Shown one piece after another: positions 1 to 22,896 of a DNA stretch of 46,672 nt; position 1 is the stretch's first letter; every line of letters begins with the position of its first letter. The notes beneath the pieces were generated by a model that saw nothing but the letters and a program-made list of their open reading frames with translations, made no database searches and was not told the origin of the DNA. The translations under genes and the position numbers were made by a program. This DNA comes from a virus. The stretch spans positions 1-46,672 of IMG/VR virus record IMGVR_UViG_3300025849_003570, one strand, 5' to 3'.

Positions 1-2
1 CA

Positions 3-98
3 AATATAACTTCAGCATCTCTAACTTTAACTCACGAGGACTCAACCTCTGTTGGTACCTTTTACGCATACTTCACAACTACTCACGTAACACCGTAA
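3..98 (+). CDS. C-terminal end of an upstream gene (partial)
   Basis: An open frame enters from the left edge and ends at TAA 96-98. The 31 visible residues are rich in Thr and Ser (…HEDSTSVGTFYAYFTTTHVTP), with the alternating polar/aromatic look of a beta-rich phage structural protein such as a fibre or neck protein. That reading is an inference from composition only. Of the other two forward frames, one stops after two codons and the other gives an implausible peptide. The next gene starts 21 nt later. Confidence 0.5.
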   Translation, partial: NITSASLTLTHEDSTSVGTFYAYFTTTHVTP

Positions 99-119
99 GA
101 TTGAAATAAAAGAAAGGTT

Positions 120-974
120 TTGAAAATAATTTGGGTCTTAGAAAATATACAGGAAAAAAAAAGCTTTTATAGTAAGTTAAATGTTATGTTACTACTTGCT
201 TCCGTATCTCTATGGAAGAAACATAACCCTCAAGACAATCTTGTTCTCTATTGTGACAGGTTAACACATAAACTTCTTAAAGACCTAGAAGTCACTTCCT
301 TGTGGAATGACATCCTAGAATACAATCACACAAGACCTATAAACCGCTCGGTATTTTGGGCAGCCAGTAAAGTTCAAGTTCTTTCTGAGCAAACCGAACC
401 TGTTATCATAATGGATAATGATACTCTAGTTTTCCAACCAATCAAACACTTACTAAACCCAGATACAGTATATGTAAGTAATTTTGAAATAGGTAAAGGG
501 TATTACCCTAATACCATTGATCTCTATGTGCAAAAACTTTCATACAGGAGTAGGTGGAAAACTGAATCTGTTAATGTTTCTTTTCTATATTTACCCGACC
601 CGGTATTTACACAAATGTATGCCAAGTTAAGTTTAAATATGATGGAAGAATTTACTGTAATGAATGTACCCCATTCTCAATACCTAATTTTTGCAGAACA
701 GTTACTTTTAAAACATCTTGTAGATAGAGAAAAAATTAAATGTAGAAGTATAATCTCCACCTATTGGGATTGCAATTCCTGGAAGTGGGGTGAAGACAAT
801 GAGCTAGGTTTTTGGCCAATTGATAAATCCGGTTCCTATTTTAATCACTACGGACCTTTAAAGTCTTGGATTATAAAAGATGAAGGAGATAATAGTTATG
901 AAAAAGAAATGAAAATGTTGTTTAATTGTGTAAATATACCTACCTTAGATTTATCAATCATTCATAAAAAATAA
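120..974 (+). CDS. Putative glycosyltransferase-like protein with a DxD motif
   Basis: This 284-residue protein starts at TTG 120, placed by an AGAAAGG ribosome-binding site just upstream, one of the few clear ones in the cassette. Residues 94-104 read VIIMDNDTLVF, with D99-N-D101 after a hydrophobic strand. This is the usual metal/nucleotide-sugar motif of GT-A glycosyltransferases. The N-terminus (KIIWVLEN…LLLASVSLWKKHNP) also fits such folds: a first strand, then a helix that scans for a donor. No signal peptide or membrane segment is seen. It is the first gene of the rightward glycan operon and its TAA overlaps the next ATG by one base (TAATG). The exact family and the sugar transferred are unknown. 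Confidence 0.6.
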   Translation: MKIIWVLENIQEKKSFYSKLNVMLLLASVSLWKKHNPQDNLVLYCDRLTHKLLKDLEVTSLWNDILEYNHTRPINRSVFWAASKVQVLSEQTEPVIIMDNDTLVFQPIKHLLNPDTVYVSNFEIGKGYYPNTIDLYVQKLSYRSRWKTESVNVSFLYLPDPVFTQMYAKLSLNMMEEFTVMNVPHSQYLIFAEQLLLKHLVDREKIKCRSIISTYWDCNSWKWGEDNELGFWPIDKSGSYFNHYGPLKSWIIKDEGDNSYEKEMKMLFNCVNIPTLDLSIIHKK

Positions 975-1735
975 TGCCGTTATTAGATAAAGAATTCACA
1001 AAGTCACGTCTAACCAATAACCAGCTAAATAAGAAAAAAGCAGATGGGACAGATTATGTAGATTTACAGTCTACACCCTATCGATGGACTCACGGTGCAA
1101 CTGATTTTCATTTAGGAGACGGTCTTTTGGTCTACACAATAATACAGGTTATGAGATTTAAGACATGTGTATGCCTGGGATCCGGAGGCGGTTTCATTCC
1201 CCGTATAATGACTCAGGCAAGATTAGATCTACATGATCAAGAAATATTTGAAGGCAGTGCGGACTATAATTGGGGTGATATAGGTGTTACATACCTTGTC
1301 GACGCCGCTAACGGCATCGGCGGTAATATAGACTACCTAGATGAAGACTCTTTCTTTAGGTACCTTTTTGCACCGAGGTTTATAAAAGATACAACAGAGA
1401 ATGCATATTATAATTTTTTTGTTAAACAGGGTATCAAAATTGATCTACTTCATATAGATGCAGGTCATTCTTATGAGGATGTAAAAAAAGATTTTGAGCT
1501 CTACTCTAAACTCATTAATCCAAACGGTATAATTACAATTCACGATACAGATGAAAATTTTCAAAAAGAACTAATTGTATCTGAAGATGAAAAAAAGTAT
1601 TTTAACTCATTTGATGGACCATCTAAATTTATAAAGGAGATCGGACCAAAATGGAAGCAATTTAATTTTTTCAATGTAGGTAACCATCCTTCGAAACCTT
1701 CATCAACCGGTTTGACACTTATACAGCGTGCCTAA
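974..1735 (+). CDS. Class I SAM-dependent methyltransferase
   Basis: This 253-residue protein has a Rossmann-type SAM site. The glycine-rich loop LGSGGG lies at residues 68-73, and a later strand reads LLHIDAGHSYEDV (about 158-170). The D-x-GHSYE segment is typical of the Methyltransf_24 group, often found with sugar or polysaccharide genes. After it comes the predicted strand NPNGIITIHDTD. It is sandwiched between two glycosyltransferase-like genes and overlaps both (1 nt upstream, 8 nt downstream), so it is probably translationally coupled. A sugar or glycan O-methylation role is inferred from context. The acceptor cannot be told from sequence. Confidence 0.75.
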   Translation: MPLLDKEFTKSRLTNNQLNKKKADGTDYVDLQSTPYRWTHGATDFHLGDGLLVYTIIQVMRFKTCVCLGSGGGFIPRIMTQARLDLHDQEIFEGSADYNWGDIGVTYLVDAANGIGGNIDYLDEDSFFRYLFAPRFIKDTTENAYYNFFVKQGIKIDLLHIDAGHSYEDVKKDFELYSKLINPNGIITIHDTDENFQKELIVSEDEKKYFNSFDGPSKFIKEIGPKWKQFNFFNVGNHPSKPSSTGLTLIQRA

Positions 1736-2567
1736 TTTAGTTACAGTAGTAGGTAGTAATACTCATATACTCCCTCATATGTTAAAGCATTATGAAAAGG
1801 TAGTTGATAAAATCTATGTAATAGTCTACAGACAATCCGAAGATGATACTATATTAGAAGAGATAGAAGAGTTAGGAATTAAACCTCACAAAATAGTCAC
1901 AGAGCCTAAATTTCATTGGGAAAGAGTAACCGATATATACAATACAGTAAAATTAACAAAACCAAACGATTGGTGGATAGTATCTGACGATGATGAACTA
2001 CAAATATACCCTGACTCTATTGAAAGTATAATAAAGACGTGTGATAGAGGCGGTTATTCCTTTGTCTCTGGAGGTTTTTTAGATCGAATAGGCAAAGATG
2101 GTACATTCCCGAAAGTAACAAGAGAGACGAAATTAAACGAGGCTTTTCCTTTAGCTGGTTTTTTTAGGTACCCGATGTCCGGAGCATGCCCAAATAAGGT
2201 TACATTAATGAAAGGTTATCAAAAAATATGTTCCGGTCAACACTACGCTATATTTGAAGACGGAACCAACAGTTGGGGATCATCACATCCAAAAAGACTT
2301 CCTATCCAAGAATGCTTCACCCAAGTACACCATTTTAAATGGGACTCAACAGTCCTTGAAAGACTCAAAGAAGTTGCGGATATTAAAAAAGAATATGCTT
2401 ACTCAGAAGAATACGAAAAAATGTATAACGCTATAAAAAACTCAGATTGGAAAATAAATACAAATAATTCTGACTATTTAGTTGAAAATTTGAATAAAAG
2501 TTCATATATTACATACGAAAGTTATTCCAAATGGGAAACACTAAAACATGGTATAATTAAAATCTAA
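1728..2567 (+). CDS. GT2-like glycosyltransferase
   Basis: This 279-residue protein starts at GTG 1728, overlapping the end of the methyltransferase gene. The N-terminus (LVTVVGSNTHILPHMLKHY) matches the first strand/helix of GT2-type enzymes that handle a nucleotide sugar. Residues 81-91 read DWWIVSDDDEL, an acidic metal-binding motif after a strand with aromatic residues, as in the Glyco_tranf_2_4/GT92-like group. A later HHFKWDS segment (near residues 205-211) resembles the conserved HxxW region of that group. No membrane segment is seen, so it probably acts in the cytoplasm. The sugar specificity is unknown. Confidence 0.65.
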   Translation: MPNLVTVVGSNTHILPHMLKHYEKVVDKIYVIVYRQSEDDTILEEIEELGIKPHKIVTEPKFHWERVTDIYNTVKLTKPNDWWIVSDDDELQIYPDSIESIIKTCDRGGYSFVSGGFLDRIGKDGTFPKVTRETKLNEAFPLAGFFRYPMSGACPNKVTLMKGYQKICSGQHYAIFEDGTNSWGSSHPKRLPIQECFTQVHHFKWDSTVLERLKEVADIKKEYAYSEEYEKMYNAIKNSDWKINTNNSDYLVENLNKSSYITYESYSKWETLKHGIIKI

Positions 2568-2772: not shown

Positions 2773-4194
2773 ATGCATTTATTAGGAATTGTAGTCCCCT
2801 ACAGGGATCGGTATGAGCAGCTAGTAAAGTTTAAATCAAAAATTACAAAGTATTTAGAAAAAACCGACATTGACTATAGGTTAATTGTTGTAGAACAGGA
2901 CAATGCTACCTCTTTTAATAGAGGTAAACTTTTAAATATAGGTTTTGAACATGCTTGTAAATTAGGGTGTGATTATGTAGTATTTCACGACGTTGATATG
3001 CACCCGGTTAGAGTTGATTACAGCTATGCTGATGTCCCTTTACACCTATCTACCGGAGTTATAAGAGAGGGTATATTAGAAAAACTTCCTTTTCCTCATT
3101 ATTTCGGTGGAGTGACTCTTTTTCCTATTGAAGATTTTAAGTTAATAAACGGTTATTCTAATAATTACTGGGGATGGGGATTTGAAGATGATGATTTACT
3201 GTACAGGTGTGTAAAAAGACATGTTCCGGTAGACATTATGAATGTTGATAACATAGGAGCTAATATAGCAACGTTAAAATTTAATGGAGCTGACTCTTCT
3301 GTTAGAATCCCTAACACTATAACATACATTAAAGATTTTACTATCCATATCTCCATTGAACCAGATGAACTAGTATTAGACCACACTAAAGACAACGATA
3401 GAATAGTAATCTTTAACGTACCGGGGTATGATTTTACGCTCTACTATAATTCATTTAACAGGTACGTACTGGAAGTATTTGATGACACTAAAGCAATAAC
3501 CACCATAACAACTCAGATACAACCAGTTTACAAAACTAATTTTTCTGTCACCTGGGATAGTATAAGCTGTATTATTGGTTTATACCAAAACGGAGTGCTA
3601 GTAGAAAAAAAACAGCTAAAAGATAAACTTATACCTTATCATAAGATAAAATATCTAACTTTAGGTTGCAGAACGATAGAAGAAGATGATTCTGAATACG
3701 AACACTACAAAGGTCTTATAGATCAATTTATGGTTTGGGATATAATGCTCCCGGAAAAAGCTATAAAATCAGTAGCAGAAAATACATATTTTGGATTTAC
3801 TCACTCCTTTGCCAACTATCAGAATGGTTCTGATCTTGTTATATACTACGATGCTAAAATGATAAAAAACTATGAGCTTGTAGACTTAACTGGAAAAAAT
3901 AATCCTGCAAAAATATACAACTGTGAGATTATAGGCCATAATCATCAAGATAGTAAGCAAATTCGAATACCTTTTAGAAGAAATTCAACTTTTAGTACTG
4001 TAGATACAAAAGTAGACAACTACCTTGACGGAAGATGGCGCCACCAGACCACTAGATTTAATCAATTAAAATATGTTAATGAAGTTTCAAAAGGTTTATC
4101 GGATTTAACTAAAGATGGGCTTTCTACTTTAGACTACAAACTACATAGTACAACATCGCTAGATAGAGAAACTCACATGACAGTAGCAATATGA
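2773..4194 (+). CDS. GT7-type (beta-1,4-galactosyltransferase-like) enzyme with an inserted LamG-like domain
   Basis: This 473-residue protein has the GT7 hallmarks: VVPYRDR at 7-13, FNRGKLLNIGF near 49-59, the metal motif D73-V-D75 in VVFHDVDM, and the acceptor/metal motif GWGFEDDD at 134-141. Eukaryotic B4GALT enzymes continue directly from that point to a C-terminal segment ending DGLNSLxY…ITVDI. Here the matching piece (DGLSTLDYKL…HMTVAI, about 448-473) comes only after some 240 extra residues (about 165-405). The extra block starts LKFNGADSSVRIP and resembles a LamG/concanavalin-type beta sandwich (F-x-G-x-x-S-x-x-I-P entry, then VPGYDFTLYYNS). So the lectin-like domain sits inside the GT7 fold. 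The ATG is 3 nt after the preceding stop, and the end overlaps the paralogous next gene by 4 nt. Confidence 0.8.
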   Translation: MHLLGIVVPYRDRYEQLVKFKSKITKYLEKTDIDYRLIVVEQDNATSFNRGKLLNIGFEHACKLGCDYVVFHDVDMHPVRVDYSYADVPLHLSTGVIREGILEKLPFPHYFGGVTLFPIEDFKLINGYSNNYWGWGFEDDDLLYRCVKRHVPVDIMNVDNIGANIATLKFNGADSSVRIPNTITYIKDFTIHISIEPDELVLDHTKDNDRIVIFNVPGYDFTLYYNSFNRYVLEVFDDTKAITTITTQIQPVYKTNFSVTWDSISCIIGLYQNGVLVEKKQLKDKLIPYHKIKYLTLGCRTIEEDDSEYEHYKGLIDQFMVWDIMLPEKAIKSVAENTYFGFTHSFANYQNGSDLVIYYDAKMIKNYELVDLTGKNNPAKIYNCEIIGHNHQDSKQIRIPFRRNSTFSTVDTKVDNYLDGRWRHQTTRFNQLKYVNEVSKGLSDLTKDGLSTLDYKLHSTTSLDRETHMTVAI

Positions 4195-5609
4195 CAAAAC
4201 ATAAATTAGGGGTCTGTGTACCGTACCGTAACAGGGAGTTACATATGCATGAGTTTATACCCAAGGTTGGAAAATATCTTAAAAATGCTGGTATAGATTT
4301 TCAAATGTATTTCTGTCATCAAGTAGATGATAAACTCTTTAATAGAGGTACAACCAAAAACATAGCTGCAAAACATGCCTTAGAAGAAGGATGTGATTAT
4401 GTAGTATTTCACGATATAGATATGATCCCCGAAGAAGGGGCTGACTACTCCTATCCTTCAGAGGCACCACGTCATATTGCCACTAAAATATCTCAAATGA
4501 ACTATCAGTTAAAATACCATGAATATTTTGGAGGAGCAGTTCTATTTACTAAAGAACAGCTTGAAGCAACAAATGGTTACTCTAATAACTACTGGGACTG
4601 GGGCATGGAAGATGATGATTTATTCTGGCGGTGCTACAAAGAGGGGTATACAAATAATACATATTTAAATGAAACTCCTATTCAACAGAAATTTAAAGAA
4701 TTTAACGGTGAATCTTCTTATATAAAATTAACTCCCTCAAGAGATTTTAAAGGTCTAACAAGTAATTCTCATACTATCTCTATATTAGTGAGAGCATATC
4801 AGCAACCGGATAAAAATAAAATCTTTTTGATAGGAGATAAGGATAATAGATATGTTGAATATCCAATTTTTAGAATACCGGGGTATGATTACGGTGTATC
4901 CTTTAACAATTCCAGAGCACTTTCTCTTACTTATTGGAATACATTTAACAAACACCACTACATGTGGGTAAAGAGGTATGATAATCAATGGAGTTGGATT
5001 ACAGCAGTCATAGATAGTAAGGGTAAACAGTCTCATTTTTACTTAAACGGATCTGAAGTTGACTCTAAAGGAGGGTACGGAAGCCCCTCGCCATTAAAAT
5101 TGGAAGGCTTACTAAAAGAGTATAATACTAAAGATATATACTTAGGAATGTCACCTTCTACTCCCGAAGAACAGGGTAACAAGTATTTTAAAGGTGATAT
5201 TGCTAAAACCTTTATATGGAATAGAGCTCTCTCTCTCAAAGAAGTTAGTAATTTACATAAAGAAATTGATTCTAACGGCCTAATTATAGATATAGATTTT
5301 AACTCCCCACGAACTAGTTTTGAAAGTTTCGATACTATAGACAAAGTTGATGAGTTTAAGATTCCTAATTCAATTCTACCCTACAGAGTAGAAGGTAGAT
5401 TCAGATGTCTCCCTCATGATGACGAAGGATTAGTAAATGGAAGATGGGTTAAAGGTGAAACAACCGCTGCAAACGAAAGAAGGTATGTTCTTCAAATGCA
5501 GCAAGATAAAATACAACATAAAGAAGATGGAATAAAGCAATTGAGTTACGAATTCCTAGGAGAAGAAAAATTTACTCCTTGGGCAAAAATGATAAATATA
5601 AAGTTATAA
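4191..5609 (+). CDS. Second GT7-type enzyme with an inserted LamG-like domain
   Basis: This 472-residue protein is a diverged tandem paralogue of the gene before it. GT7 motifs are CVPYRNRE near 8-15, FNRGTTKNIA, D75-I-D77 in VVFHDIDM, and WDWGMEDDD at 135-143. The GT7-like C-terminus DGIKQLSYEF starts at residue 446. Between them (about 165-400) lies a LamG-like region beginning FNGESSYIKLTPS. It includes RIPGYDYGVSFNNS, which aligns with the other copy's VPGYDFTLYYNS, and IYLGMSP…YFKGDIAKTFIWNRALS, the terminal strands expected of LamG folds. The ATG overlaps the previous stop (ATGA). The two copies share layout but are clearly diverged, so the domain insertion pre-dates the duplication or both were inherited together. 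Confidence 0.8.
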   Translation: MTKHKLGVCVPYRNRELHMHEFIPKVGKYLKNAGIDFQMYFCHQVDDKLFNRGTTKNIAAKHALEEGCDYVVFHDIDMIPEEGADYSYPSEAPRHIATKISQMNYQLKYHEYFGGAVLFTKEQLEATNGYSNNYWDWGMEDDDLFWRCYKEGYTNNTYLNETPIQQKFKEFNGESSYIKLTPSRDFKGLTSNSHTISILVRAYQQPDKNKIFLIGDKDNRYVEYPIFRIPGYDYGVSFNNSRALSLTYWNTFNKHHYMWVKRYDNQWSWITAVIDSKGKQSHFYLNGSEVDSKGGYGSPSPLKLEGLLKEYNTKDIYLGMSPSTPEEQGNKYFKGDIAKTFIWNRALSLKEVSNLHKEIDSNGLIIDIDFNSPRTSFESFDTIDKVDEFKIPNSILPYRVEGRFRCLPHDDEGLVNGRWVKGETTAANERRYVLQMQQDKIQHKEDGIKQLSYEFLGEEKFTPWAKMINIKL

Positions 5610-5612
5610 GTT

Positions 5613-7016
5613 ATGTTAAATGAAGTCTTTGAAAAAACTAGAAGCAAGTTAAATAAAGTAGGCTGTGGAATGTGTTTAGCAAAATGGACACAAGTCACAA
5701 TGCACTTACATAATGGTATGACACATTCCTGTCATCACCCAACAGCTCATAAAATACCTTTAAGTGAATTACAAAATAATCCTTCTGCTTTACACAATAC
5801 AAACTATAAAAAATTAGCACGTAAAGAAATGCTGGAAGGCGGTAAGCCAAAAGAATGTGATTATTGTTGGAAGATTGAAGACAGCAGTAACGCATTTTCT
5901 GACAGAACATATAAATCATCAGAACCTTGGTCTGCTCCTCACTTTGAAGAAATTACTACCAGTAGCTGGAAAAAGGATTTTAACCCGAAATATGTTGAAG
6001 TCGCATTTAGTAATACATGTAATTTCAAATGTTCGTACTGTGGCCCAATGTATTCTACAAAATGGGTAGAAGAAATCAACCAGTTCGGACCTTATAAGAC
6101 AAGTACGTCTTTTAATAGTATGAGTACATACAAAGAACGAGGGGTAATGCCCTATCAGGTATCTGAACATAATCCATACGTAGAGGCTTTTTGGAAATGG
6201 TGGCCAGATTTATATCACGATCTACATACATTTAGGATTACAGGTGGCGAACCTCTACTCAGTAAGGATACATTCAAAGTATTAGATTACATTATCGAAA
6301 CAGATAATCCAAATAAAAGATTAAGTTTCTGTATAAACAGTAATTTAGGCATACCTGAATCGTTATTTAAAAAATTTGTAGAGAAAGTTGAAATCATAAT
6401 CGATAAAGAACTAGTACACGAGTTTATAATCTTTACTTCTTGTGACGCTTACGGAGAACAAGCAAACTACATTAGAAATGGATTTAATTATAATCAATTC
6501 TACGAAAGAGTAGATTTTTTATTAGATAAATTTAAACCAATGACCATTGACATAATGTCAACCTACAATGCTCTTTCAGTTCCTAGCTATAAAAAATTAA
6601 TAGAAGACGTAGTAATACTTAAAGAAAGACACCATAATCCATCAAGATACTGGGGCTCTTCTCTTTTATTAGATTCATCATACCTTCGATGGCCCACCCA
6701 TCAGACTGTTAAGATACTTGATAAAGAATGGGTAAGGGAAATCGATGAACAGGCAAAATTAGTTGACTTTTATGAACAAATGCGTACCGGTTTAGATGGA
6801 TATGGCTTTACTGATATCGAAATAAATAAAATTAAAAGAATTAAAGATTGGTTTATTTCAGAAGAAAATGAAGAGAATTTAAACACAAATCGAAAAGATT
6901 TTTATAAATTTATCACAGAACATGATAAAAGAAGAAACACCGATTTTGTAAAAACATTCCCTGAGCTTGAAGAATTTTTAGCAAAATGTAGAGTAACAAA
7001 ATCTAGAGTATCATGA
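5613..7016 (+). CDS. Radical SAM enzyme with an N-terminal twitch/auxiliary-cluster-like domain (copy 1)
   Basis: This 467-residue protein carries the radical SAM motif C136-x3-C140-x2-C143 (TCNFKCSYC) and the SAM-binding GGEP (FRITGGEPLL). An unusual cysteine-rich block precedes the core: C18, C21, C40, C82 and C85 (KECDYCWKIED). It resembles the twitch/SPASM auxiliary-cluster segment normally found after the barrel, which fits the family described as N-twitch radical SAM proteins. The C-terminus has DKRRNTDFVKTFPELEEF, closely matched in the second copy at 7935. The substrate is unknown; such enzymes may modify peptides or sugars. The start is 3 nt after the GT7 stop and the end overlaps the LamG-like gene by 4 nt. 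Confidence 0.8.
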   Translation: MLNEVFEKTRSKLNKVGCGMCLAKWTQVTMHLHNGMTHSCHHPTAHKIPLSELQNNPSALHNTNYKKLARKEMLEGGKPKECDYCWKIEDSSNAFSDRTYKSSEPWSAPHFEEITTSSWKKDFNPKYVEVAFSNTCNFKCSYCGPMYSTKWVEEINQFGPYKTSTSFNSMSTYKERGVMPYQVSEHNPYVEAFWKWWPDLYHDLHTFRITGGEPLLSKDTFKVLDYIIETDNPNKRLSFCINSNLGIPESLFKKFVEKVEIIIDKELVHEFIIFTSCDAYGEQANYIRNGFNYNQFYERVDFLLDKFKPMTIDIMSTYNALSVPSYKKLIEDVVILKERHHNPSRYWGSSLLLDSSYLRWPTHQTVKILDKEWVREIDEQAKLVDFYEQMRTGLDGYGFTDIEINKIKRIKDWFISEENEENLNTNRKDFYKFITEHDKRRNTDFVKTFPELEEFLAKCRVTKSRVS

Positions 7017-7933
7017 TATTTAAAGATAAATTAGCATACTTGGTCAAAAACGAAACCAGAAACAATACCAATACAAAAAAGTACAACTTATTAGAAGAGG
7101 ATTTTATTTTTGAGACAACATTTAAACCAGATTTATCCAATAGTGAAAATGAATTCTGTGTAATTGGTAGGACTGGTTACAACATGGGCATATTCTCACA
7201 TGCGGGTAAATCAATAAAATGGGCCTGGTGGAAGATAGAAAATGAAGTTATTGTTTATGATGATTTATTTTTTGGTTCTAAAGATACGGAGGATGTTGAT
7301 GAAAATCATGCTAGATGGTGGAAGGAGTATATAATAAAAAACACACCCATTAAGATGAGTGATGCTGCGGTCAATGGTTTAGTTAGAAGATGGGGGTTTT
7401 ACGATGCATCCCAACCCATCACAGACCCATCAGGAAATGATGGAGGGTATATAGCTATTGATTATAAAATTGAGGGTATACCCGATGAAACATTAAGAGA
7501 ATGGGTCATAAAACATGATAACCATAGAGTTGAAACTTTAAGTCTATTACCTGAGATAATTAAAGTTAAGGTAGTAAAAAAAGACAATAAGTTTCATTTA
7601 TATGTTGGTGATATCTTTTACAATAGTAAAGATTGCGGACAAGTGTATGATTATTCAAACCAGACAATTTTTATTGGCGTAGCTAACCCATACTCTTTCA
7701 ACGAAAATCAATTTTGGTTTTACGGTGAAATATTTGAAGTAAAAATATATAATAGTAGTATTGAAAAACCAGAAAACCTGTACCTCTGGTTTGATTTGGA
7801 AAGAAATTCAAGGTTTAAAACATTTGATAAATCCGGAAACGGTAACCATGGAGAACTTTATGAAACTGAAGAAGTCAAACAAGAAAAACATCTAGAATTT
7901 AATAAATCCGCAAGACCAGCTAAAATAGTTTAA
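7013..7933 (+). CDS. Free-standing LamG/concanavalin-like protein
   Basis: This 306-residue protein has no GT7 motifs but looks like the inserts of the two GT7 proteins. Features are an early FIFETTFKPDLSNSEN strand pair, KVVKKDNKFHLYVGDIFYNS, a terminal FWFYGEIFEVKIYNS, and a closing FDKSGNGNHGELYE segment. This D-x-S-G-N-x-N-x-G end is a common signature of LamG/jellyroll domains. No signal peptide is seen, so it is either cytoplasmic or built into the virion. It sits between the two radical SAM paralogues (4-nt overlap upstream, 1 nt gap downstream) and is probably co-translated with them. Glycan binding is inferred from the fold. Confidence 0.6.
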   Translation: MIFKDKLAYLVKNETRNNTNTKKYNLLEEDFIFETTFKPDLSNSENEFCVIGRTGYNMGIFSHAGKSIKWAWWKIENEVIVYDDLFFGSKDTEDVDENHARWWKEYIIKNTPIKMSDAAVNGLVRRWGFYDASQPITDPSGNDGGYIAIDYKIEGIPDETLREWVIKHDNHRVETLSLLPEIIKVKVVKKDNKFHLYVGDIFYNSKDCGQVYDYSNQTIFIGVANPYSFNENQFWFYGEIFEVKIYNSSIEKPENLYLWFDLERNSRFKTFDKSGNGNHGELYETEEVKQEKHLEFNKSARPAKIV

Positions 7934-7934
7934 T

Positions 7935-9392
7935 ATGTCAGAAGAATTAAAAAAATGGAGAGATACTCGTTTAAATTCAATAAGTAAAAGCTTCTGCGCC
8001 GCAAAGTGGTATAATGCTAGTTTACATTTAGGACATGGGTTCACAAATTCTTGCCACCTTCCTTTACCCCACCCTATTGATTTAAAGGAACTAAAAGACA
8101 ATCCATCAGCACTTCATAATACCAAACATAAGAAAGAGATGCGAAAAATGATGCTAACAGGCGTCAGACCAGCAGAGTGTTCTTATTGTTGGAAAATTGA
8201 AGACATTGGTAGAGATAACATATCAGATAGGGTTTACAAGAGTAATATATACACAGATAAAGAAATTGCCGACTTAAAAGATTCAGATTATAATCAAGAT
8301 ATTTTATTAAAAACTGTAGAAGTTAGTTTTGATAGAACTTGTAACTTTGCCTGTAGCTACTGTAATGCCGGGTATAGTACCACATGGGGAAAAGATATTA
8401 CAGAGAATGGACCTTATCAAAAATTTAAATCCTTTAGTAGCGGAGCATACCAAAGCGATGGATCATGGTCAGAACAATTTAGTAAGAATGGTCTAGATAA
8501 CCCCTATGTTGTTGCTTTTTTAGAATGGTGGCCAGAGCTGACAAAAACTCTACAGGAAATAAGGATTACTGGTGGCGAACCTGCACAAAGTTTTAATTTC
8601 TGGAATTTTATCGAGCTAATGAAAAAACATCCTTCTAAAAATTTAAGATTTGCAGTTAATTCAAACCTTGGAGTAAATGAAAGGTTACTAAACAAGCTAA
8701 TTGATGCTACTTATCAATTAGAAATAAAACAATTTGATCTATATACCAGTAATGAATCACTTGGACTTCACGCCGAGTACATTAGAGATGGTTTGAAATA
8801 CGATGAATGGCGATCAAATATGGTCAAGTTTATTGAAAAAGCAAACCCTAAAATATTTAGATCATTAACTATAATGATGACAGTAAATAGCCTATCTCTT
8901 GTTAGTATTGTTGAATTTTTAGAAGATATAAAAATACTCAAAATAAAATACGGTCATAATAGACCTAATGTTGATTTAAATATACTAAGATGGCCAGCAT
9001 TTATGTCCCCCCTTGTTCTTCCTGATAACATAAAAAAAGAACTACATGCTAAGCTGAAAAAATGGTATAATGAAAATAAAAATAGTCCTTTATTCAATAT
9101 ACATGAATTAGCTCAATTTGAAAGACTTCTTGATTATATTGAAGTAGTCAATAGAGGCCACAGAGGAACAGAATCAGATAGAGATGTGTTATTTCACGAT
9201 TTTAAAAGTTTTTACATGCAGTATGATAAAAGAAGAGGTAAAGACTTCAAAACCACCTTCCCTGAGTTAGCCGAATGGTATGAAACATTAAAAGTAGATA
9301 ACAGTATACCTAATCGTCCTGTCTTTAATGGCGAGATAAGTCATTTCGAAACAGGGGAATATGTACCAGATACTAAGAATGATAAACTATAA
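7935..9392 (+). CDS. Radical SAM enzyme with an N-terminal twitch/auxiliary-cluster-like domain (copy 2)
   Basis: This 485-residue protein is a paralogue of the gene at 5613. The radical SAM cysteines fall at the same residue numbers (C136, C140, C143; TCNFACSYC), as do C21, C40, C82 and C85 (AECSYCWKIED); C18 of copy 1 is not kept. It also shares NPSALHNT, RITGGEPAQS in place of GGEPLL, and DKRRGKDFKTTFPELAEW near the end. About 35 extra C-terminal residues (VDNSIPNRPVFNGEIS…) are specific to this copy. Conserved cluster ligands suggest both are active. The change after GGEP and the lost C18 may reflect different substrates or cluster binding. Confidence 0.8.
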   Translation: MSEELKKWRDTRLNSISKSFCAAKWYNASLHLGHGFTNSCHLPLPHPIDLKELKDNPSALHNTKHKKEMRKMMLTGVRPAECSYCWKIEDIGRDNISDRVYKSNIYTDKEIADLKDSDYNQDILLKTVEVSFDRTCNFACSYCNAGYSTTWGKDITENGPYQKFKSFSSGAYQSDGSWSEQFSKNGLDNPYVVAFLEWWPELTKTLQEIRITGGEPAQSFNFWNFIELMKKHPSKNLRFAVNSNLGVNERLLNKLIDATYQLEIKQFDLYTSNESLGLHAEYIRDGLKYDEWRSNMVKFIEKANPKIFRSLTIMMTVNSLSLVSIVEFLEDIKILKIKYGHNRPNVDLNILRWPAFMSPLVLPDNIKKELHAKLKKWYNENKNSPLFNIHELAQFERLLDYIEVVNRGHRGTESDRDVLFHDFKSFYMQYDKRRGKDFKTTFPELAEWYETLKVDNSIPNRPVFNGEISHFETGEYVPDTKNDKL

Positions 9393-15621: not shown

Positions 15622-16158
15622 TTAGCTATAGTAAAGTTCCGGATATTCAACTATAACATGTATACCTCCTTGTGTATAAACGTGCTTGTAAGTCTCTTCT
15701 ATAGACTCCCAATTTTTTAAATCATGAAATTGTATATTAGGGCACATAGATTCGAATTCTTGTAAATAATTTCCTTTGTGCTGATACCCAGGGTCTAACG
15801 GTTTATCTGATCCTTTTCCTAATCTTATAATCATGTTTACCTTCCATCTATCACCACTCATTAGACCAATTTTATCTACATGGTTAACTAGTTGATTTGT
15901 TGCACAAATTAAAAAATCCCACCTCGGGTAAAAAGAAATAACAAATTTGCCTGCCATCGCCATACCTAGAGAAATACCCATTTGAGATTCTTCCATAACA
16001 GGTAATTCAATTAACTTGTTTTTAGGTACATCAACAATCGTGGTACTCATTGGATTTCCTTGCCAAAGTACTTGTTGACCTATAAAAATAGTATCTTCCT
16101 GCTGACCTAGGTAAGTCATTGAACTTAAGAGTGAATCTTTATATAAACTTTTTTCCAT
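15622..16158 (-). CDS. Thiamine-diphosphate E1 beta-like subunit (pyrimidine-binding domain only)
   Basis: This 178-residue protein matches the pyrimidine-binding (transketolase-like) domain of E1 beta subunits. ELPVMEESQMGISLGMAMAG (51-70) carries the conserved Glu near E56 that activates the cofactor. It is followed by RWDFLICATNQLVNHVDK, the DF…Q-x-x-N-x-x-A/D-K helix. Normal E1 beta proteins are about 320-340 residues; here the C-terminal transketolase domain is absent, replaced by a short strand (GGIHVIVEYPELYYS). It is last in the leftward operon, about 5.6 kb downstream of its likely partner, the alpha-like gene at 21722. Together they could run a decarboxylase/ketol-transfer reaction on a sugar nucleotide; this is inferred. 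Confidence 0.75.
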   Translation of the reverse strand: MEKSLYKDSLLSSMTYLGQQEDTIFIGQQVLWQGNPMSTTIVDVPKNKLIELPVMEESQMGISLGMAMAGKFVISFYPRWDFLICATNQLVNHVDKIGLMSGDRWKVNMIIRLGKGSDKPLDPGYQHKGNYLQEFESMCPNIQFHDLKNWESIEETYKHVYTQGGIHVIVEYPELYYS

Positions 16159-18241: not shown

Positions 18242-19145
18242 AAACTTCTTTTAATCTTACAATAAATGATTTAGTTGGTAAAGTATTATAATGTGCTTGC
18301 TTTGTAATATCCATTAATCTCTTTAAGTCACCGTTAGGTTTTGATGTATCCCATTTGATATCTAAATCTTTTCCACTAATACTAGCTATATTATCGACTA
18401 TCTCTTTGATTGAAATCTCAATTCCGGACCCAAAATTAACAATATCGTTTATTTGATTAGTATACATTTTTATAATAGCATCCGCTACATCACCGGCGTA
18501 AACAAAATCTCTAATTGGTGATCCATCACCCCAGCATACAATTTCATTCTTTGCTTCTGCAACTTTTTTAATTGTTGAAGCTATCACAGTACCGAATCCA
18601 CTAAAATCATCATATTCACCGAATATGTTTGCTGGTCTTATAATTGACCATTTATTATAGTCATACTGTACCTTGTAAGCACCAAGAAGTATTTCTCCCA
18701 TTCTTTTACTCCAACTAGGGTACCAATCAGCCTCAGAGGGAAGAGTCTTCCAAACAGTATCTTCAATAAATACCTCAGCCGGAGCATATACCCCTACCGA
18801 ACTAACAAATACTAACCAAATATCTTGCTTAGCACATTGGTTTATAATCTCAGTATTGATTTTGAAAGAAGGGTAAAGAAAATCGACCGGACTATTTTTA
18901 GCCTTTAAAGGTGATCCTTTTATACCGAATGTATTAAATACCGCATTAAATTTATTACTCGAAAAAATATTTTCAATTACATTACTTTTAATTAGATCAG
19001 CTTCAATAAAAGACCATCCATCTATAGGAAGGTGTTTACTGCGGTATAAATCAACCCCTACTACATCGTAACCTAGTCCGATACATTTTTTTACTAAATG
19101 TGTTCCCACTAGACCACTACACCCTGTTATTAGTATTTTTTTCAT
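18213..19145 (-). CDS. NAD-dependent sugar-nucleotide epimerase/dehydratase (extended SDR)
   Basis: This 310-residue protein has the nucleotide motif TGCSGLVG (7-14) and the active-site strand FVSSVGVYAP. IIRPANIFGEYDDF and CWGDGSPIRDFVYAGDV are the substrate-side motifs of extended SDRs acting on nucleotide sugars. In WYPSWSKRMGE the Lys is K147 but the Tyr is at 142, five residues before it rather than four. This resembles the anomaly in the paralogue at 16975. The ATG lies at the end of the upstream 855-residue gene (TAATG-type overlap). The exact reaction (epimerisation, dehydration or reduction) cannot be told. Confidence 0.85.
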   Translation of the reverse strand: MKKILITGCSGLVGTHLVKKCIGLGYDVVGVDLYRSKHLPIDGWSFIEADLIKSNVIENIFSSNKFNAVFNTFGIKGSPLKAKNSPVDFLYPSFKINTEIINQCAKQDIWLVFVSSVGVYAPAEVFIEDTVWKTLPSEADWYPSWSKRMGEILLGAYKVQYDYNKWSIIRPANIFGEYDDFSGFGTVIASTIKKVAEAKNEIVCWGDGSPIRDFVYAGDVADAIIKMYTNQINDIVNFGSGIEISIKEIVDNIASISGKDLDIKWDTSKPNGDLKRLMDITKQAHYNTLPTKSFIVRLKEVYEFYTNSSR

Positions 19146-21712
19146 TATATTAATTTCTTTTTAGTATAATTCTCCTTAATATTAATTTTACGAGGTAGAT
19201 CACATAATCCTAATAGAAAATCTCTATCTCTATGATTATTAGCCCATTTTAAAGATTTTTTATAATTATCAGTAAACCTCTTTTTGTTATTCTTATAAAA
19301 CTCTATAAAAAATTCTTTATTATCGTTAATTCTTTTTACTTCCTTGACGAATTGAAATAACCTATCCCTGTGATTAAGAACCGTATCATAACTATGATCT
19401 ATAATATCATCAAACCAATCGAAATCATAATGATTTTTAATTTCGGTAATATGATACGGAGATGCAAGTATTAGAGGAAATTGCATAACATAAAATGCTT
19501 TGAAAGACTTCTCACTAATATGTAAAACATCTGAATCAAACTCTGTTTCGGTGGTTATGTTAAAATATGAATTTTCAAAAGTTTCTTTTATATAAGTCTC
19601 TCCCCAATTGATAGAATCTGTGTCTTCCCTACTATCAAACCAAGTAAACTGCTCTTCATATTTATTTTTTTTCTGTTCTATATTTTGAAAATAATCAATT
19701 TCTTCCTGTAGTTCAACTACATCTGCATCATTTAGTACATTACAGTAGAAAACTATATGTATATTTTTAGCATTCCATCCGTTAACTAAAGACCAATCTA
19801 CATTGTCTATAATATTATTTTTCTTTAATAACGAAAGTAGTGCATACCTATGAGGCCTGGGTCTCCTATTTTGACATAGGAAAAAAGCTCCCTCCTTATC
19901 TGTTTTAAAATCAAGAGTGCCCATCTGTTTGCGCATAATTAAAGCAATCTGATCTCTTAGTATTGATGTAACGTGAAAATTAATATCACTTTTTAGTCTT
20001 TTCTTATAATCATTTAACTGTATATTGTTATTAGCAATCCATAATTGTTTTTGATTTATATTGAGCTCAACAGCCCATTCGTGAATAGCTTTAACAGTTT
20101 CAAAGTTTTCATATTCATGTTCATTCATCATAATAATATTAAAGTTAGGAAACTTTAATACTGTATCAATAACCTCGGCAGGCATCGGCAACAACCCCTC
20201 TCTGAGATTAGAGAGTATCCTATTAGGAGTTAATATTATAAAATAAAAGAATCTTCTATCTGGATAATTAGCTATATCCTCTAATGGGTACCTTCTAACT
20301 AGAACCCCTGGAAAATGTAAAGGACCTAGAGGTGAGTCAATATTCATTAAGAAACCTGTATAAACCTCCCTACAATTAGGATTATCAGGAAATTGCAGTT
20401 TCTCATTCCAATTATCATATATAAGATTGAGGTTACCAGTCGGTGGTTTAACCCCTAAACTATCTAAATAACCAAAAAACCTATAATCGTGGATATTGTT
20501 AAGATTTTCAAGTACTTCACGGTTGTTAATAAATCTTTCTTTATTTTTTTTATAAAACTCTATAAAAAAATCTTTTTTACCGTTGATTCTTTTTATTTCT
20601 TTAACAAAGGCAGCAAGCCTTTCTCTGTCATTTACAATATTATCATAATCGTGATTTATTACATCATCAAAAAAATCTATATCGGGATAGGCTTTTCTAA
20701 AATAATAACCATGACGGTAGGATGCTAGGATAAGAGGAAATTGAAAATAAAGAAACGGCTTAAAAGACTTTTCTGATATATGAACATCCTCATTATAGAA
20801 ATTAGACTCAGTTACAATATTAAAATATGAGTTCTCATAAGTATTAGGTTCAAAAAAGATTGATTGATTATCCCGCTTATCAAATTCATTTCTATCAATT
20901 TCGTATTTACTTTTTTGTATTGTGATAGAACGAAAAAACTCAATCTCCTGAGATACTTCATGATATTTTTGTGGATTCAAAACCCGTAAGTAATCTTCCT
21001 CCACAAAATCAGCATTATTATCCCAACCGTTAATTAAAGACCAGTTTATATCTCCTAATAGGTCGTAGTTTTTTAATAAACACAGCAAACCGTATCTATG
21101 TATTCTAGGAGACCTATTGTGACATAGAAAAAAAGAACCCGGATCTTTATCAGATTTAAAGTTTAATACCTTGTCCTCATCCTCTATAGCATTTAACATT
21201 GTACGGGTGGTATAAACTTGCGCACTAATGCTCAAATCTGCTTTATAGTCTTCTAGTTTTTCATTATTACTCACAAGAATAGTACGAGTAGGATCTAGTT
21301 TTAATGTCTGTACGAGTTTTTCTAAAGAAACTAGAGAATCTTTAGGTTCAAATTCACATTCATTCATTAGGAGTAAATATAAATTTGAGTTTTGATTAAA
21401 CATCCGAATAACTTCATTATCAACAGGCATTTTATCATGAGCAAACGAATCCCTAAAGAAACTTTCTCTGCACCAAACATAATAAAAGAAAACCTCATCT
21501 GGGTATTTTATAACATCTTCTAACTTTCTTGGTACTGTTTTAACTGAAGGAAGAACTGAGATCATATTCATTTCAGTTAACCACCGTCTATCAGCACCAG
21601 GCTGAGGTGTAATATTGGTTTTAGGTCTATTAGGTTTCGGAATATTTTTTTCTAAATCCCAATCGTCATAGACGAGGTTTAAAACAATTTCTTTTTTACT
21701 CTGGTTTGACAT
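19145..21712 (-). CDS. Internally duplicated GT10-like putative glycosyltransferase
   Basis: This 855-residue protein is two copies of one ~415-residue unit. Starts are LNLVYDDW (about 10) and LNLIYDNW (about 425). Shared blocks include FFLCHNRSPRIHRYGLL versus FFLCQNRRPRPHRYALL, then WSLINGWD versus WSLVNGWN. Further on come YENSYFNIVTE versus FENSYFNITTE, and HISEKSFKPF…FPLILAS versus HISEKSFKAF…FPLILAS. The end pairs FFDDVINHDYD with WFDDIIDHSYD and FFIEFYKKNKERF with FFIEFYKNNKKRF. The E-N-S-Y-F-x-I…H-x-S-E-K-x-F-K pattern is the donor-binding signature of GT10 (fucosyltransferase-like) GT-B enzymes. Both halves keep the motif, so it may be a bifunctional or tandem enzyme. The sugar is unknown. 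Confidence 0.65.
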   Translation of the reverse strand: MSNQSKKEIVLNLVYDDWDLEKNIPKPNRPKTNITPQPGADRRWLTEMNMISVLPSVKTVPRKLEDVIKYPDEVFFYYVWCRESFFRDSFAHDKMPVDNEVIRMFNQNSNLYLLLMNECEFEPKDSLVSLEKLVQTLKLDPTRTILVSNNEKLEDYKADLSISAQVYTTRTMLNAIEDEDKVLNFKSDKDPGSFFLCHNRSPRIHRYGLLCLLKNYDLLGDINWSLINGWDNNADFVEEDYLRVLNPQKYHEVSQEIEFFRSITIQKSKYEIDRNEFDKRDNQSIFFEPNTYENSYFNIVTESNFYNEDVHISEKSFKPFLYFQFPLILASYRHGYYFRKAYPDIDFFDDVINHDYDNIVNDRERLAAFVKEIKRINGKKDFFIEFYKKNKERFINNREVLENLNNIHDYRFFGYLDSLGVKPPTGNLNLIYDNWNEKLQFPDNPNCREVYTGFLMNIDSPLGPLHFPGVLVRRYPLEDIANYPDRRFFYFIILTPNRILSNLREGLLPMPAEVIDTVLKFPNFNIIMMNEHEYENFETVKAIHEWAVELNINQKQLWIANNNIQLNDYKKRLKSDINFHVTSILRDQIALIMRKQMGTLDFKTDKEGAFFLCQNRRPRPHRYALLSLLKKNNIIDNVDWSLVNGWNAKNIHIVFYCNVLNDADVVELQEEIDYFQNIEQKKNKYEEQFTWFDSREDTDSINWGETYIKETFENSYFNITTETEFDSDVLHISEKSFKAFYVMQFPLILASPYHITEIKNHYDFDWFDDIIDHSYDTVLNHRDRLFQFVKEVKRINDNKEFFIEFYKNNKKRFTDNYKKSLKWANNHRDRDFLLGLCDLPRKINIKENYTKKKLI

Positions 21713-21721
21713 AAGCTAGTC

Positions 21722-22354
21722 TTAAAACACCACCCATTTACCTGTACCGTAATGTGGCCATTTCTTTTTGTAATCATACCAAATAACATCACTTGGTATT
21801 TCTCTTTTTTTATCATTCCAAGTCTTCTCGGTAGGGGTATTAGTTGAAACACCATTGTCCTCCACAATAAAGACTATAGGGAGATTGTAGTTAGTAGCAT
21901 ATTTGTGCATTTCATAGAAACCTCCGGTTTCAAAAGCCATATCTCCTATAAAGCAGAATACCTTATCATCCTTACCGTCTATCTTATTAGCCATCGCTAT
22001 ACCGGTTGCTATTGGTATAATTGCACCAACTATTGCTGATGCATAGAATTTATACTCTTCACTAACGATAGTAATAGAACGGCCAGCCAGAATTTCACCC
22101 GCCAACCACTTTGAAGGTACACCTTTCAACAGAGCATGATAATGAGAACGCCATGTTGAGAACACCCAATCGGTAGGTTTAATTCTTTTACAAATTTCAA
22201 TTAACTCATCTTCATTCCCACCACTCAAGTGAACAGGTCCTTTTATTTTACCTAATTCCCAATCTACTACTATATCTTTTTCAAACTGCTCTAAACCTTC
22301 TTTGTCGTAGAGGGTCTCTTTTACTATCGGGTATTGTTCTAAATTTTTTATCAT
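21722..22354 (-). CDS. Thiamine-diphosphate E1 alpha-like subunit (short form)
   Basis: From ATG 22354 this is a 210-residue protein; this start gives a 4-nt ATGA overlap with the upstream rmlC-like gene. An in-frame codon at 22393 would add 13 residues inside that gene and is less likely. The TDP-binding motif is G137-D-M-A…N167 (IGDMAFETGGFYEMHKYA…FIVEDN). WRSHYHALLKG and GAIIPIATGIAMANK are typical of E1 alpha subunits. Length is about two thirds of a standard E1 alpha, ending PHYGTGKWVVF, so it is a compact form. Its likely partner is the beta-like protein at 15622. Substrate and product are unknown. Confidence 0.75.
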   Translation of the reverse strand: MIKNLEQYPIVKETLYDKEGLEQFEKDIVVDWELGKIKGPVHLSGGNEDELIEICKRIKPTDWVFSTWRSHYHALLKGVPSKWLAGEILAGRSITIVSEEYKFYASAIVGAIIPIATGIAMANKIDGKDDKVFCFIGDMAFETGGFYEMHKYATNYNLPIVFIVEDNGVSTNTPTEKTWNDKKREIPSDVIWYDYKKKWPHYGTGKWVVF

Positions 22355-22896
22355 CGGTCTCTTTTTTGTAATACAGGAGATAAAGTAGGCCATTCCATCT
22401 GATAATCAGGATCATTCCATTTCACCACCCCTTGTTCATTAGCATCGACATAGCCGTCTTTATAAAATAAATTGTAATGGAACATACAATCAGTTAAGGC
22501 ATAATGCCCGTTAGCAAACCCTGGTGGAATTAACACCTGGTTTCTATCTTTTTCAGTTATCATAAATGATTCCCAAACACCAAAAGTAGCAGATTCTTTT
22601 CTTACATCTAATACAATTAAGTATATATCACCTACGGCTGCTTGAACTAATTTCCAAGTCTTATTATCATAATGTAGCCCTCTCAGTACACCTTTGTATG
22701 ATTTAGAAAATCTACCGTGAATACTAATTTCATTTTTTTCGTAATGGATATGCTTCATTACTGGATGCTCTTCACTATGAAATGTAGTAAATATTTCACC
22801 TCTATATTCCCTATAGATTGAAGGAGTGAAGACTGGTACCTGATACCCAAATTTCTTTGATGGAGTTTCTATGAACTCATCCCATTTATTGCTCAT
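22351..22896 (-). CDS. rfbC: dTDP-4-dehydrorhamnose 3,5-epimerase-like (RmlC) protein
   Basis: This 181-residue protein has the RmlC cupin motifs. VLRGLHYDN carries the catalytic-base His75, and IPPGFANGHYAL (123-134) is the metal-free cupin core signature. A later FYKDGYV supplies the usual active-site Tyr region. Family length (~180) is normal. RmlC-type enzymes epimerise C3 and/or C5 of dTDP-4-keto-6-deoxy sugars, so a deoxy-sugar nucleotide is a likely intermediate in the leftward pathway. No rmlA/B/D set is recognisable here, so the keto-sugar may come from the host. It overlaps the oxygenase-like gene upstream and the E1 alpha-like gene downstream by 4 nt each. Confidence 0.85.
   Translation of the reverse strand: MSNKWDEFIETPSKKFGYQVPVFTPSIYREYRGEIFTTFHSEEHPVMKHIHYEKNEISIHGRFSKSYKGVLRGLHYDNKTWKLVQAAVGDIYLIVLDVRKESATFGVWESFMITEKDRNQVLIPPGFANGHYALTDCMFHYNLFYKDGYVDANEQGVVKWNDPDYQMEWPTLSPVLQKRDR

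Follow-up and report, generated by a model that had tools for sequence, protein, structure and literature searches.

A GT7 glycosyltransferase subfamily defined by an inserted LamG domain, within a conserved phage glycan cassette

Introduction

Family GT7 of the CAZy classification is a thoroughly studied family of glycosyltransferases. The acceptor choice of a GT7 enzyme can be changed by alpha-lactalbumin, a non-catalytic partner and a separate protein of the lysozyme type. Here, we describe two adjacent genes, A and B, from a virus record (IMG/VR IMGVR_UViG_3300025849_003570). The whole stretch analysed, referred to as the window, is 46,672 bases long. Both genes encode a GT7 protein with a LamG domain set into its catalytic domain. 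In lactose synthase, formed by beta-1,4-galactosyltransferase 1 (beta4GalT1) and alpha-lactalbumin, the partner is a separate protein, whereas in A and B the LamG domain belongs to the same chain.

The closest described enzymes are beta4GalT1 and beta-1,4-galactosyltransferase 7. They share with A and B the catalytic fold, the DxD, FGG and GWGxEDDD motifs and the C-terminal block, with 28-35% identity over 188-216 structurally aligned residues. Unlike A and B, they carry no insert. A transferase joined to a carbohydrate-related domain is also found in B4GALNT3 and B4GALNT4, which we take to be CAZy GT7 members. Their extra domain is PA14 and not LamG. It is luminal, lies in the same chain and has a presumed disulfide bond with the catalytic region at the C-terminus (a C912A mutant is described); it is needed for activity, which was almost abolished in B4GALNT3 without PA14, and the available part of the source makes no mention of an insertion into the GT7 hairpin (PMC11254600). 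In beta4GalT1, a long flexible loop that carries the metal site is described as closing over the donor and opening the acceptor site (PMC4202792, excerpt).

Glycosyltransferases are also found in the host recognition cluster of pelagimyophages, a large hypervariable island of marine T4-type phages. According to the accessible portion of the source, two of these genomes hold radical S-adenosylmethionine (SAM) cassettes, and modification of the host O-chain was proposed (PMC7029224). Unlike in the window, GT8 is the best represented family there, and LamG or laminin occurs 0 times in the main text as available (PMC7029224). The available part of PMC7150976 added nothing on LamG. Among open-licence PubMed Central (PMC) papers, neither the GT7-LamG architecture nor the phage glycan pathway was found described.

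Domain architecture of the two proteins

Genes A (2773..4194, 473 amino acids (aa)) and B (4191..5609, 472 aa) lie on the plus strand, and the start of B overlaps the stop of A by ATGA. Both are open reading frames (ORFs) and were assigned by Pfam, structure models and alignment with beta4GalT1. The N-terminal GT7 part of A comprises residues 1-153 (2773..3231), with DVD at 73-75, Y110 before FGG, and GWGFEDDD at 134-141. A LamG/pentraxin-like insert at about residues 164-394 (3262..3954), delimited by VIA-align matches and Pfam Laminin_G_3, separates it from the C-terminal GT7 part, which runs from about residue 400 onward (3970..4191). In B, the N-terminal part comprises residues 1-155 (4191..4655), with DID at 75-77, Y112 before FGG, and DWGMEDDD at 136-143, in which Asp replaces the first Gly of GWGxEDDD. 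The B insert, at about residues 164-393 (4680..5369), was placed by VIA-align matches and conservation and contains a tryptophan-rich stretch at 249-269. The C-terminal part of B (residues 397-472, 5379..5606) holds a PxR motif, the metal-ligand His409 and DGIKQLSY. An earlier note, made by a model from the letters alone, had pointed to GT7 motifs, and the DxD, GWGFEDDD/DWGMEDDD and C-terminal DG(L/I)xxLxY motifs were indeed found in both proteins where it had placed them.

The same note had proposed LamG-like domains within the GT7 catalytic folds of tandem paralogues, and Pfam bore this out in both proteins. A matched Glyco_transf_7N (65.5 bits), Glyco_transf_7C (63.7 bits) and Laminin_G_3 (37.1 bits), and B matched the same three models with 60.1, 71.1 and 53.4 bits. 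All scores were above their cut-offs (27.6 bits gathering cut-off for Laminin_G_3), and the Laminin_G_3 stretches were 171-331 in A and 172-353 in B. The Pentraxin model PF00354 reached 21 bits in A, below its cut-off of 25, and had no match in B at E<=1; the pentraxin likeness of the insert is thus a fold match only. A sequence search of the PDB returned beta4GalT1 with E ~1e-28, but the match was confined to residues 2-152 in B and 2-154 in A, presumably because the insert interrupts the alignment. No NCBIfam family was found for A or B at E<=0.01, and the PHROGs matches of both proteins were weak, with a best E of 0.0055.

Predicted structures

AlphaFold2 models were built from alignments of the window proteins with those of related loci. 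The B alignment had 87 rows (73 of the 74 B-type rows plus 14 A-type) and the A alignment 85 rows (76 of the 79 A-type rows plus 9 B-type); rows at least 92% identical and a few divergent ones were left out. Model B had a predicted local distance difference test score (pLDDT) of 94.3 and a predicted template modelling score (pTM) of 0.88, and model A had 94.1 and 0.89. For two domains of similar size, such pTM values suggest a fixed relative orientation in the models.

In VIA-align, beta4GalT1 matched model B with Z 28.3 at 1.8 Å (215 residues aligned, model range 1..472) and model A with Z 27.2 at 2.2 Å (212 residues aligned, model range 1..473). The program gives the first and last aligned residues only. 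Since about 240 residues lie outside the insert, an alignment of 212-215 residues that spans to the last residue indicates a complete GT7 domain in the models, with the middle skipped. This was one of the points on which the earlier note had staked its claim: the C-terminal segment completes the GT7 fold in both models, with the alignment reaching residues 472 and 473. A LamG domain simply appended at the C-terminus was thereby ruled out, as it was by the alignment of the C-terminal segment with the tails of insert-less relatives. Complexes of beta4GalT1 with alpha-lactalbumin were among the structural matches of both A and B.

Both models showed strands throughout the middle region, which matched PAPP-A, pentraxins (PTX3, SAP, CRP) and BACOVA_03559 with Z 17-22 over 185-201 aligned residues. 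The PAPP-A matches ranged over Z 20-22, with 21.7 for A (model 164..399) and 21.3 for B (model 164..393); the part matched is presumably the N-terminal LamG-like domain of PAPP-A. BACOVA_03559 (4dqa) gave Z 20.9 for A and 19.8 for B, and PTX3 gave 19.5 and 20.1, within a range of 17-20 for the three pentraxins together. The insert, as modelled, is a complete two-sheet beta sandwich of the LamG/pentraxin type, as the earlier note had anticipated for the middle region. The identity of these proteins to the insert is 12-20%, and their domains, unlike the insert, are not set in a glycosyltransferase core. No standard GT7 enzyme of such design had been known to the earlier note, and none appeared among the top 50 PDB rows per model or the top 50 BFVD rows for B, where the best TM-score by query length was 0.36.

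Insertion site

The site was defined by two arginines: an anchor residue that follows the EDDD helix, and the conserved one in RxGx(Y/F)xxLxH. In all 13 insert-less proteins of an alignment made for this comparison (12 from bacterial contigs and 1 viral), the two are 11-12 residues apart. The spacing was 252 residues in B and 257 in A, with a median of 256 and a range of 202-308 in 250 insert proteins. Subtracting 11 gives net inserts of about 241 (B) and 246 (A) residues, in line with the 240-280 residues estimated earlier. The insert enters at a hairpin turn that leads directly into the metal-His strand, where the long flexible loop has its base, about 15 residues from the metal ligand. For this placement, we assume a residue correspondence between the insertion hairpin and the flexible loop of beta4GalT1.

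Profiles of the phage C-terminal parts were compared with the 57 short, insert-less GT7-like proteins and matched 37 of them at E<=0.01, in the corresponding part of the chain. Against 2380 non-GT7 ORFs there was one match, to an open-ended insert-bearing fragment. Furthermore, the profile of insert-less GT7 proteins aligned with beta4GalT1 unbroken (E 6e-60). By these profile comparisons, the C-terminal block is a true GT7 block.

Homologues and origin of the insert

Homologues were taken from viral scans comprising 51 loci, 18 loci, the best 80 of at least 478 and the best 80 of at least 556 loci (contigs partly shared), and from a genome collection (26 loci); the best-80 selections skew this sample to close relatives. 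Among 311 distinct complete ORFs with a GT7 core, the tail length after the anchor was bimodal, with 57 short, 253 long and 1 between. The short set includes 6 weak or GT2-like proteins and numbers 51 without these. The insert profile matched 251 of the 253 long proteins and none of the 57 short ones, so that other GT7 proteins with an insert at the same site, which the earlier note had suggested looking for, do exist. The two long proteins without a match (L173 and L177) are very large multi-domain proteins with GT2 domains. In the two overlapping sets of aligned relatives, Pfam detected LamG (E<=0.001) in 80 of 87 and in 75 of 85 proteins. A chance LamG-like pattern or a frameshift fusion was ruled out by the presence of the insert in these 251 homologues.

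Most of the long proteins (243 of 253) were on viral contigs. The genome collection contributed 8 insert-bearing GT7 proteins, all on metagenome-bin contigs (L152-L156), which are probably mis-binned phage contigs. The bins carry the titles Pelagibacterales, Fibrobacter, Flavobacteriales and Gammaproteobacteria. Among 395 genomes from the order of a Flavobacteriales-titled bin, GT7 was detected (E<=1e-20) in that bin alone, as long frames on two contigs. At the same threshold, GT7 was present in 7 of 232 genomes from the phylum to which a Parachlamydiaceae genome belongs, all as open frames of 226-288 aa. We also considered that the insert might be common to cellular GT7 proteins, and did not find this in those 232 and 395 genomes. 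A tblastn search of 50,697 phage records gave no match for A (E<=1) and none for B or the neighbouring GT2 protein (E<=1e-5). The first radical SAM protein downstream of B matched 14 Vibrio phage records, with only about 21% identity.

A tree of the GT7 core only was calculated from 74 of the 250 insert and 39 of the 51 insert-less rows, after removal of near-copies. It was a quick tree, with weak deep branches. Insert presence needed 2 state changes on it, versus a mean of 32 with shuffled labels, and the well-supported branches force only 1. The history of the insert thus fits one or two acquisitions, and the few state changes make one acquisition followed by duplication the simplest reading, not a proven one. 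A third type of GT7-LamG paralogue, of 527-529 aa, was observed upstream of the pair on three contigs (L066:1987-3567, L067:2195-3781, L070:2195-3781). It aligned without His at the metal position.

Conserved residues

Residues were counted in 250 insert proteins, i.e. the 253 long ones minus L173, L177 and a 396-aa copy of L042. The two DxD positions were kept in 249 and 247 of them, the first EDDD Asp (Asp141) in all 250, the metal His in 241 and the Tyr before FGG (Tyr112) in 245. Glu140 was kept in 236 and Asp142 in 208. Window B keeps all catalytic positions counted, including His409, so it should be, judging from its sequence, an active metal-dependent inverting transferase. We take it that a Tyr at the place of Tyr112 favours galactose (Gal) over N-acetylgalactosamine in beta4GalT1. 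By analogy, Tyr112 suggests UDP-Gal as the donor of B. The text of PMC7955280 contains no mention of Y289L.

The inserts were less conserved than the cores. Median identity was 0.47 for the insert versus 0.81 for the core in B, and 0.29 versus 0.58 in A. Among 73 rows of B inserts, 70-73 nevertheless retained Tyr257, Trp259, Lys261, Arg262 and Trp267, and 66 retained Trp269, as would be expected of a ligand site, here a predicted one. Among pairs with 65-75% core identity, insert identity was 0.45 for A (n=272) and 0.42 for B (n=218), which rules out that the A inserts diversify faster, relative to their cores, than those of B.

Gene cassette

Genes A and B are part of a cassette on the plus strand, in the order GT2, two GT7-LamG genes, radical SAM, free LamG, radical SAM. 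Upstream of A are a DUF6734 protein (120..974, PF20508, E 1.8e-11) and a methyltransferase (974..1735, Pfam Methyltransf_24), both recurrent neighbours of the cassette, followed by the GT2-type glycosyltransferase (1728..2567, PF13704, 28.5 bits). Downstream of B are two twitch-domain radical SAM proteins (5613..7016, NF033640, 331 bits; 7935..9392, NF033640, 300.5 bits), and between them a free-standing LamG protein (7013..7933). The latter was missed by the Pfam LamG model and was recognised as an insert homologue by the insert profile and profile-profile comparison. Its 306-aa counterpart on another contig (L003) was matched by the insert profile with E 9e-14.

The cassette was followed over 118 contig groups, each comprising loci with an identical GT7-LamG protein (111 groups after merging those that share an identical 400-base stretch). 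Two GT7-LamG genes were present in 88 groups, three in 24 and one in 6. Adjacent genes overlapped by 4 nucleotides in 68 of 113 pairs and by 1 nucleotide in 19, together 87 of 113; from these overlaps, A-B pairs appear to be translationally coupled as a rule. Directly upstream of the GT7-LamG genes, a GT2 gene was found in 100 of the 118 groups, and directly downstream a twitch radical SAM gene in 102. The gene after the first radical SAM gene was readable in 98 groups, as a free LamG gene in 46, another radical SAM gene in 9 and an 'other' gene in 43. The free LamG calls were made by similarity to the free LamG protein of the window or to the insert, 43 of the 46 by the insert profile. A profile of these 43 proteins matched the inserts with 99.6-99.7% probability, versus 0.1-0.3% for the GT7 core as control. 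At the same place, a further set of 31 proteins (185-225 aa; 29 from the 43 'other' groups and 2 from the 46) matched the inserts at 96-97% probability. The short GT7 genes have different surroundings: 2 of 64 loci had a neighbour resembling any cassette protein.

Phage identity and host

By its gene content, the window belongs to a T4-type myovirus. The region at 26-45 kb holds genes for a DnaB-like helicase, a UvsX-like recombinase, a single-strand binding protein and ribonucleotide reductase, and for the tail sheath, tail tube and baseplate hub. Two core proteins were compared with the nearest isolate, Flavobacterium phage immuto. The helicase was 77.1% identical over 94% and the tail sheath 69.0% over 97%. 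Based on these two proteins only, a marine flavobacterium is the probable host. Immuto has no glycosyltransferase annotated within the 29 kb that precede its sheath gene, and this gene is adjoined by tail-fibre and structural genes. The sheath gene has 2130 bases in immuto (L258:29027-31156) versus 1740 in the window (26269-28008), and the alignment is in two pieces; an extra domain in the immuto sheath is possible.

The window contains more putatively sugar-related genes downstream of the cassette, identified by reading. On the minus strand of this sugar island, separate beta-like and alpha-like halves of a thiamine-diphosphate enzyme were read at 15622-16158 and 21722-22393, about 5.5 kb apart. 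Also on the minus strand, 19145-21712 encodes an 855-aa protein which, by reading, appears to consist of two similar tandem halves.

Discussion

The computed results are a GT7 architecture interrupted by a LamG domain, a GT7 fold completed in both models, a defined insertion site, a spread that is mainly viral and a conserved cassette. With the models, the structural half of the finding, a LamG domain inserted in GT7, is firmly supported. A GT7 subfamily is defined by this insertion, and it resides within a conserved phage glycan cassette.

Our preferred explanation, to which we give a reasonable though not high probability, is that A and B are inverting, metal-dependent GT7 transferases whose LamG insert holds or selects the acceptor, and which act sequentially in a phage glycan cassette. 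Both would require a divalent metal and would most likely be galactosyltransferases. A sandwich of the LamG/pentraxin type would have replaced a short turn at the base of the mobile lid, where the strand that follows the EDDD helix leads into the one bearing the metal-ligand His. It was probably acquired once, and gene duplication would then have given rise to the coupled paralogues A and B, and sometimes a third. Gripping of the acceptor, which the earlier note had suggested along with a position in the acceptor-side loop, is a candidate role of the insert and the most likely one: the LamG domain would hold or select a glycan beside the active site and thus play in cis the part that a lectin module or alpha-lactalbumin plays for other transferases. 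The near loss of activity of B4GALNT3 without PA14 (PMC11254600) offers a functional parallel. We infer that A and B would act in sequence, within a cassette that also comprises the GT2 protein, the methyltransferase, the radical SAM enzymes and the free LamG protein. This cassette could alter the host surface glycan or decorate the virion.

Several observations weigh against this explanation. LamG domains often bind proteins, not glycans. The conserved aromatic residues of the B inserts could serve packing instead of a ligand site, and the 14 A rows of the B alignment mostly lack them. Eleven non-glycine positions are kept in at least 85% of the 76 A rows, including Asp209, Pro217, Asp220, Ser227 and Asp371; this set looks mainly structural. 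On the catalytic side, window A has Thr412 (codon ACA, 4006-4008) at the metal-His position, which is His in the other 75 A-type rows of its alignment. With this Thr, window A may be weak or inactive. A protein 100% identical to window A is encoded on another contig (L054). Residue 140 is not Glu in 14 of the 250 paralogues and residue 142 is not Asp in 42, so some GT7-LamG copies need not be active.

In an alternative reading, the A/B family would be GT7-derived binding proteins and not enzymes, given the Thr in window A and the paralogues changed at Glu140 or Asp142. We regard this as very improbable. The near-complete retention of the DxD residues, the first EDDD Asp and the metal His would be hard to explain without catalysis, and window B keeps every catalytic position. 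If the insert is instead a docking domain, it would bring A and B into one complex with the free LamG protein, possibly also with the radical SAM enzymes, and would not touch the acceptor. Consistent with such a complex, 46 of 98 groups have a free LamG gene behind the first radical SAM gene, 31 further proteins there match the insert profiles, and A and B are translationally coupled; LamG domains are also generally held to be able to mediate protein contacts. Docking would not obviously need an insertion about 15 residues from the metal ligand, however, and one contig (L155) keeps its GT7-LamG gene although an unrelated, SGNH-like protein (by reading) follows the radical SAM gene; we consider docking rather unlikely. 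The position of the insert also bears on a ligand-free role in structure or gating, in which it would stiffen the mobile lid loop at its base and alter how the loop opens and closes. The hairpin that holds the insert leads straight into the metal-His strand, the high pTM of the models suggests tight packing, and the movement of the beta4GalT1 loop is described as forming the donor lid and opening the acceptor site (PMC4202792, excerpt). Yet a complete lectin-type fold of 240 residues exceeds the needs of a brace, and the aromatic and basic residues that are conserved in the B insert point to a ligand; we consider gating improbable.

Acceptor selection by the LamG insert remains our preferred explanation, and a more specific form of it can be put forward tentatively, as a possibility that may well prove wrong. 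The insert would be an acceptor-specifying domain in cis, an intramolecular counterpart of alpha-lactalbumin that founded a phage-specific GT7 subfamily. The cassette of GT2, two to three GT7-LamG proteins, free LamG and twitch radical SAM would be an undescribed system of marine phages for building and modifying glycans. In this system, the B insert would use a Trp-rich site, absent from the A inserts, to read a portion of the acceptor that stays constant.

A lectin-type domain placed before the metal-binding strand of such a well-studied family is a natural domain-insertion experiment on acceptor choice. The enzymes belong to a fixed cassette in most of the 118 contig groups and thus point to a widespread phage glycan pathway, which probably bears on the recognition between phages and marine flavobacteria. 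If the preferred explanation is true, the acceptor specificity of GT7 enzymes would become testable by swapping one self-contained domain.

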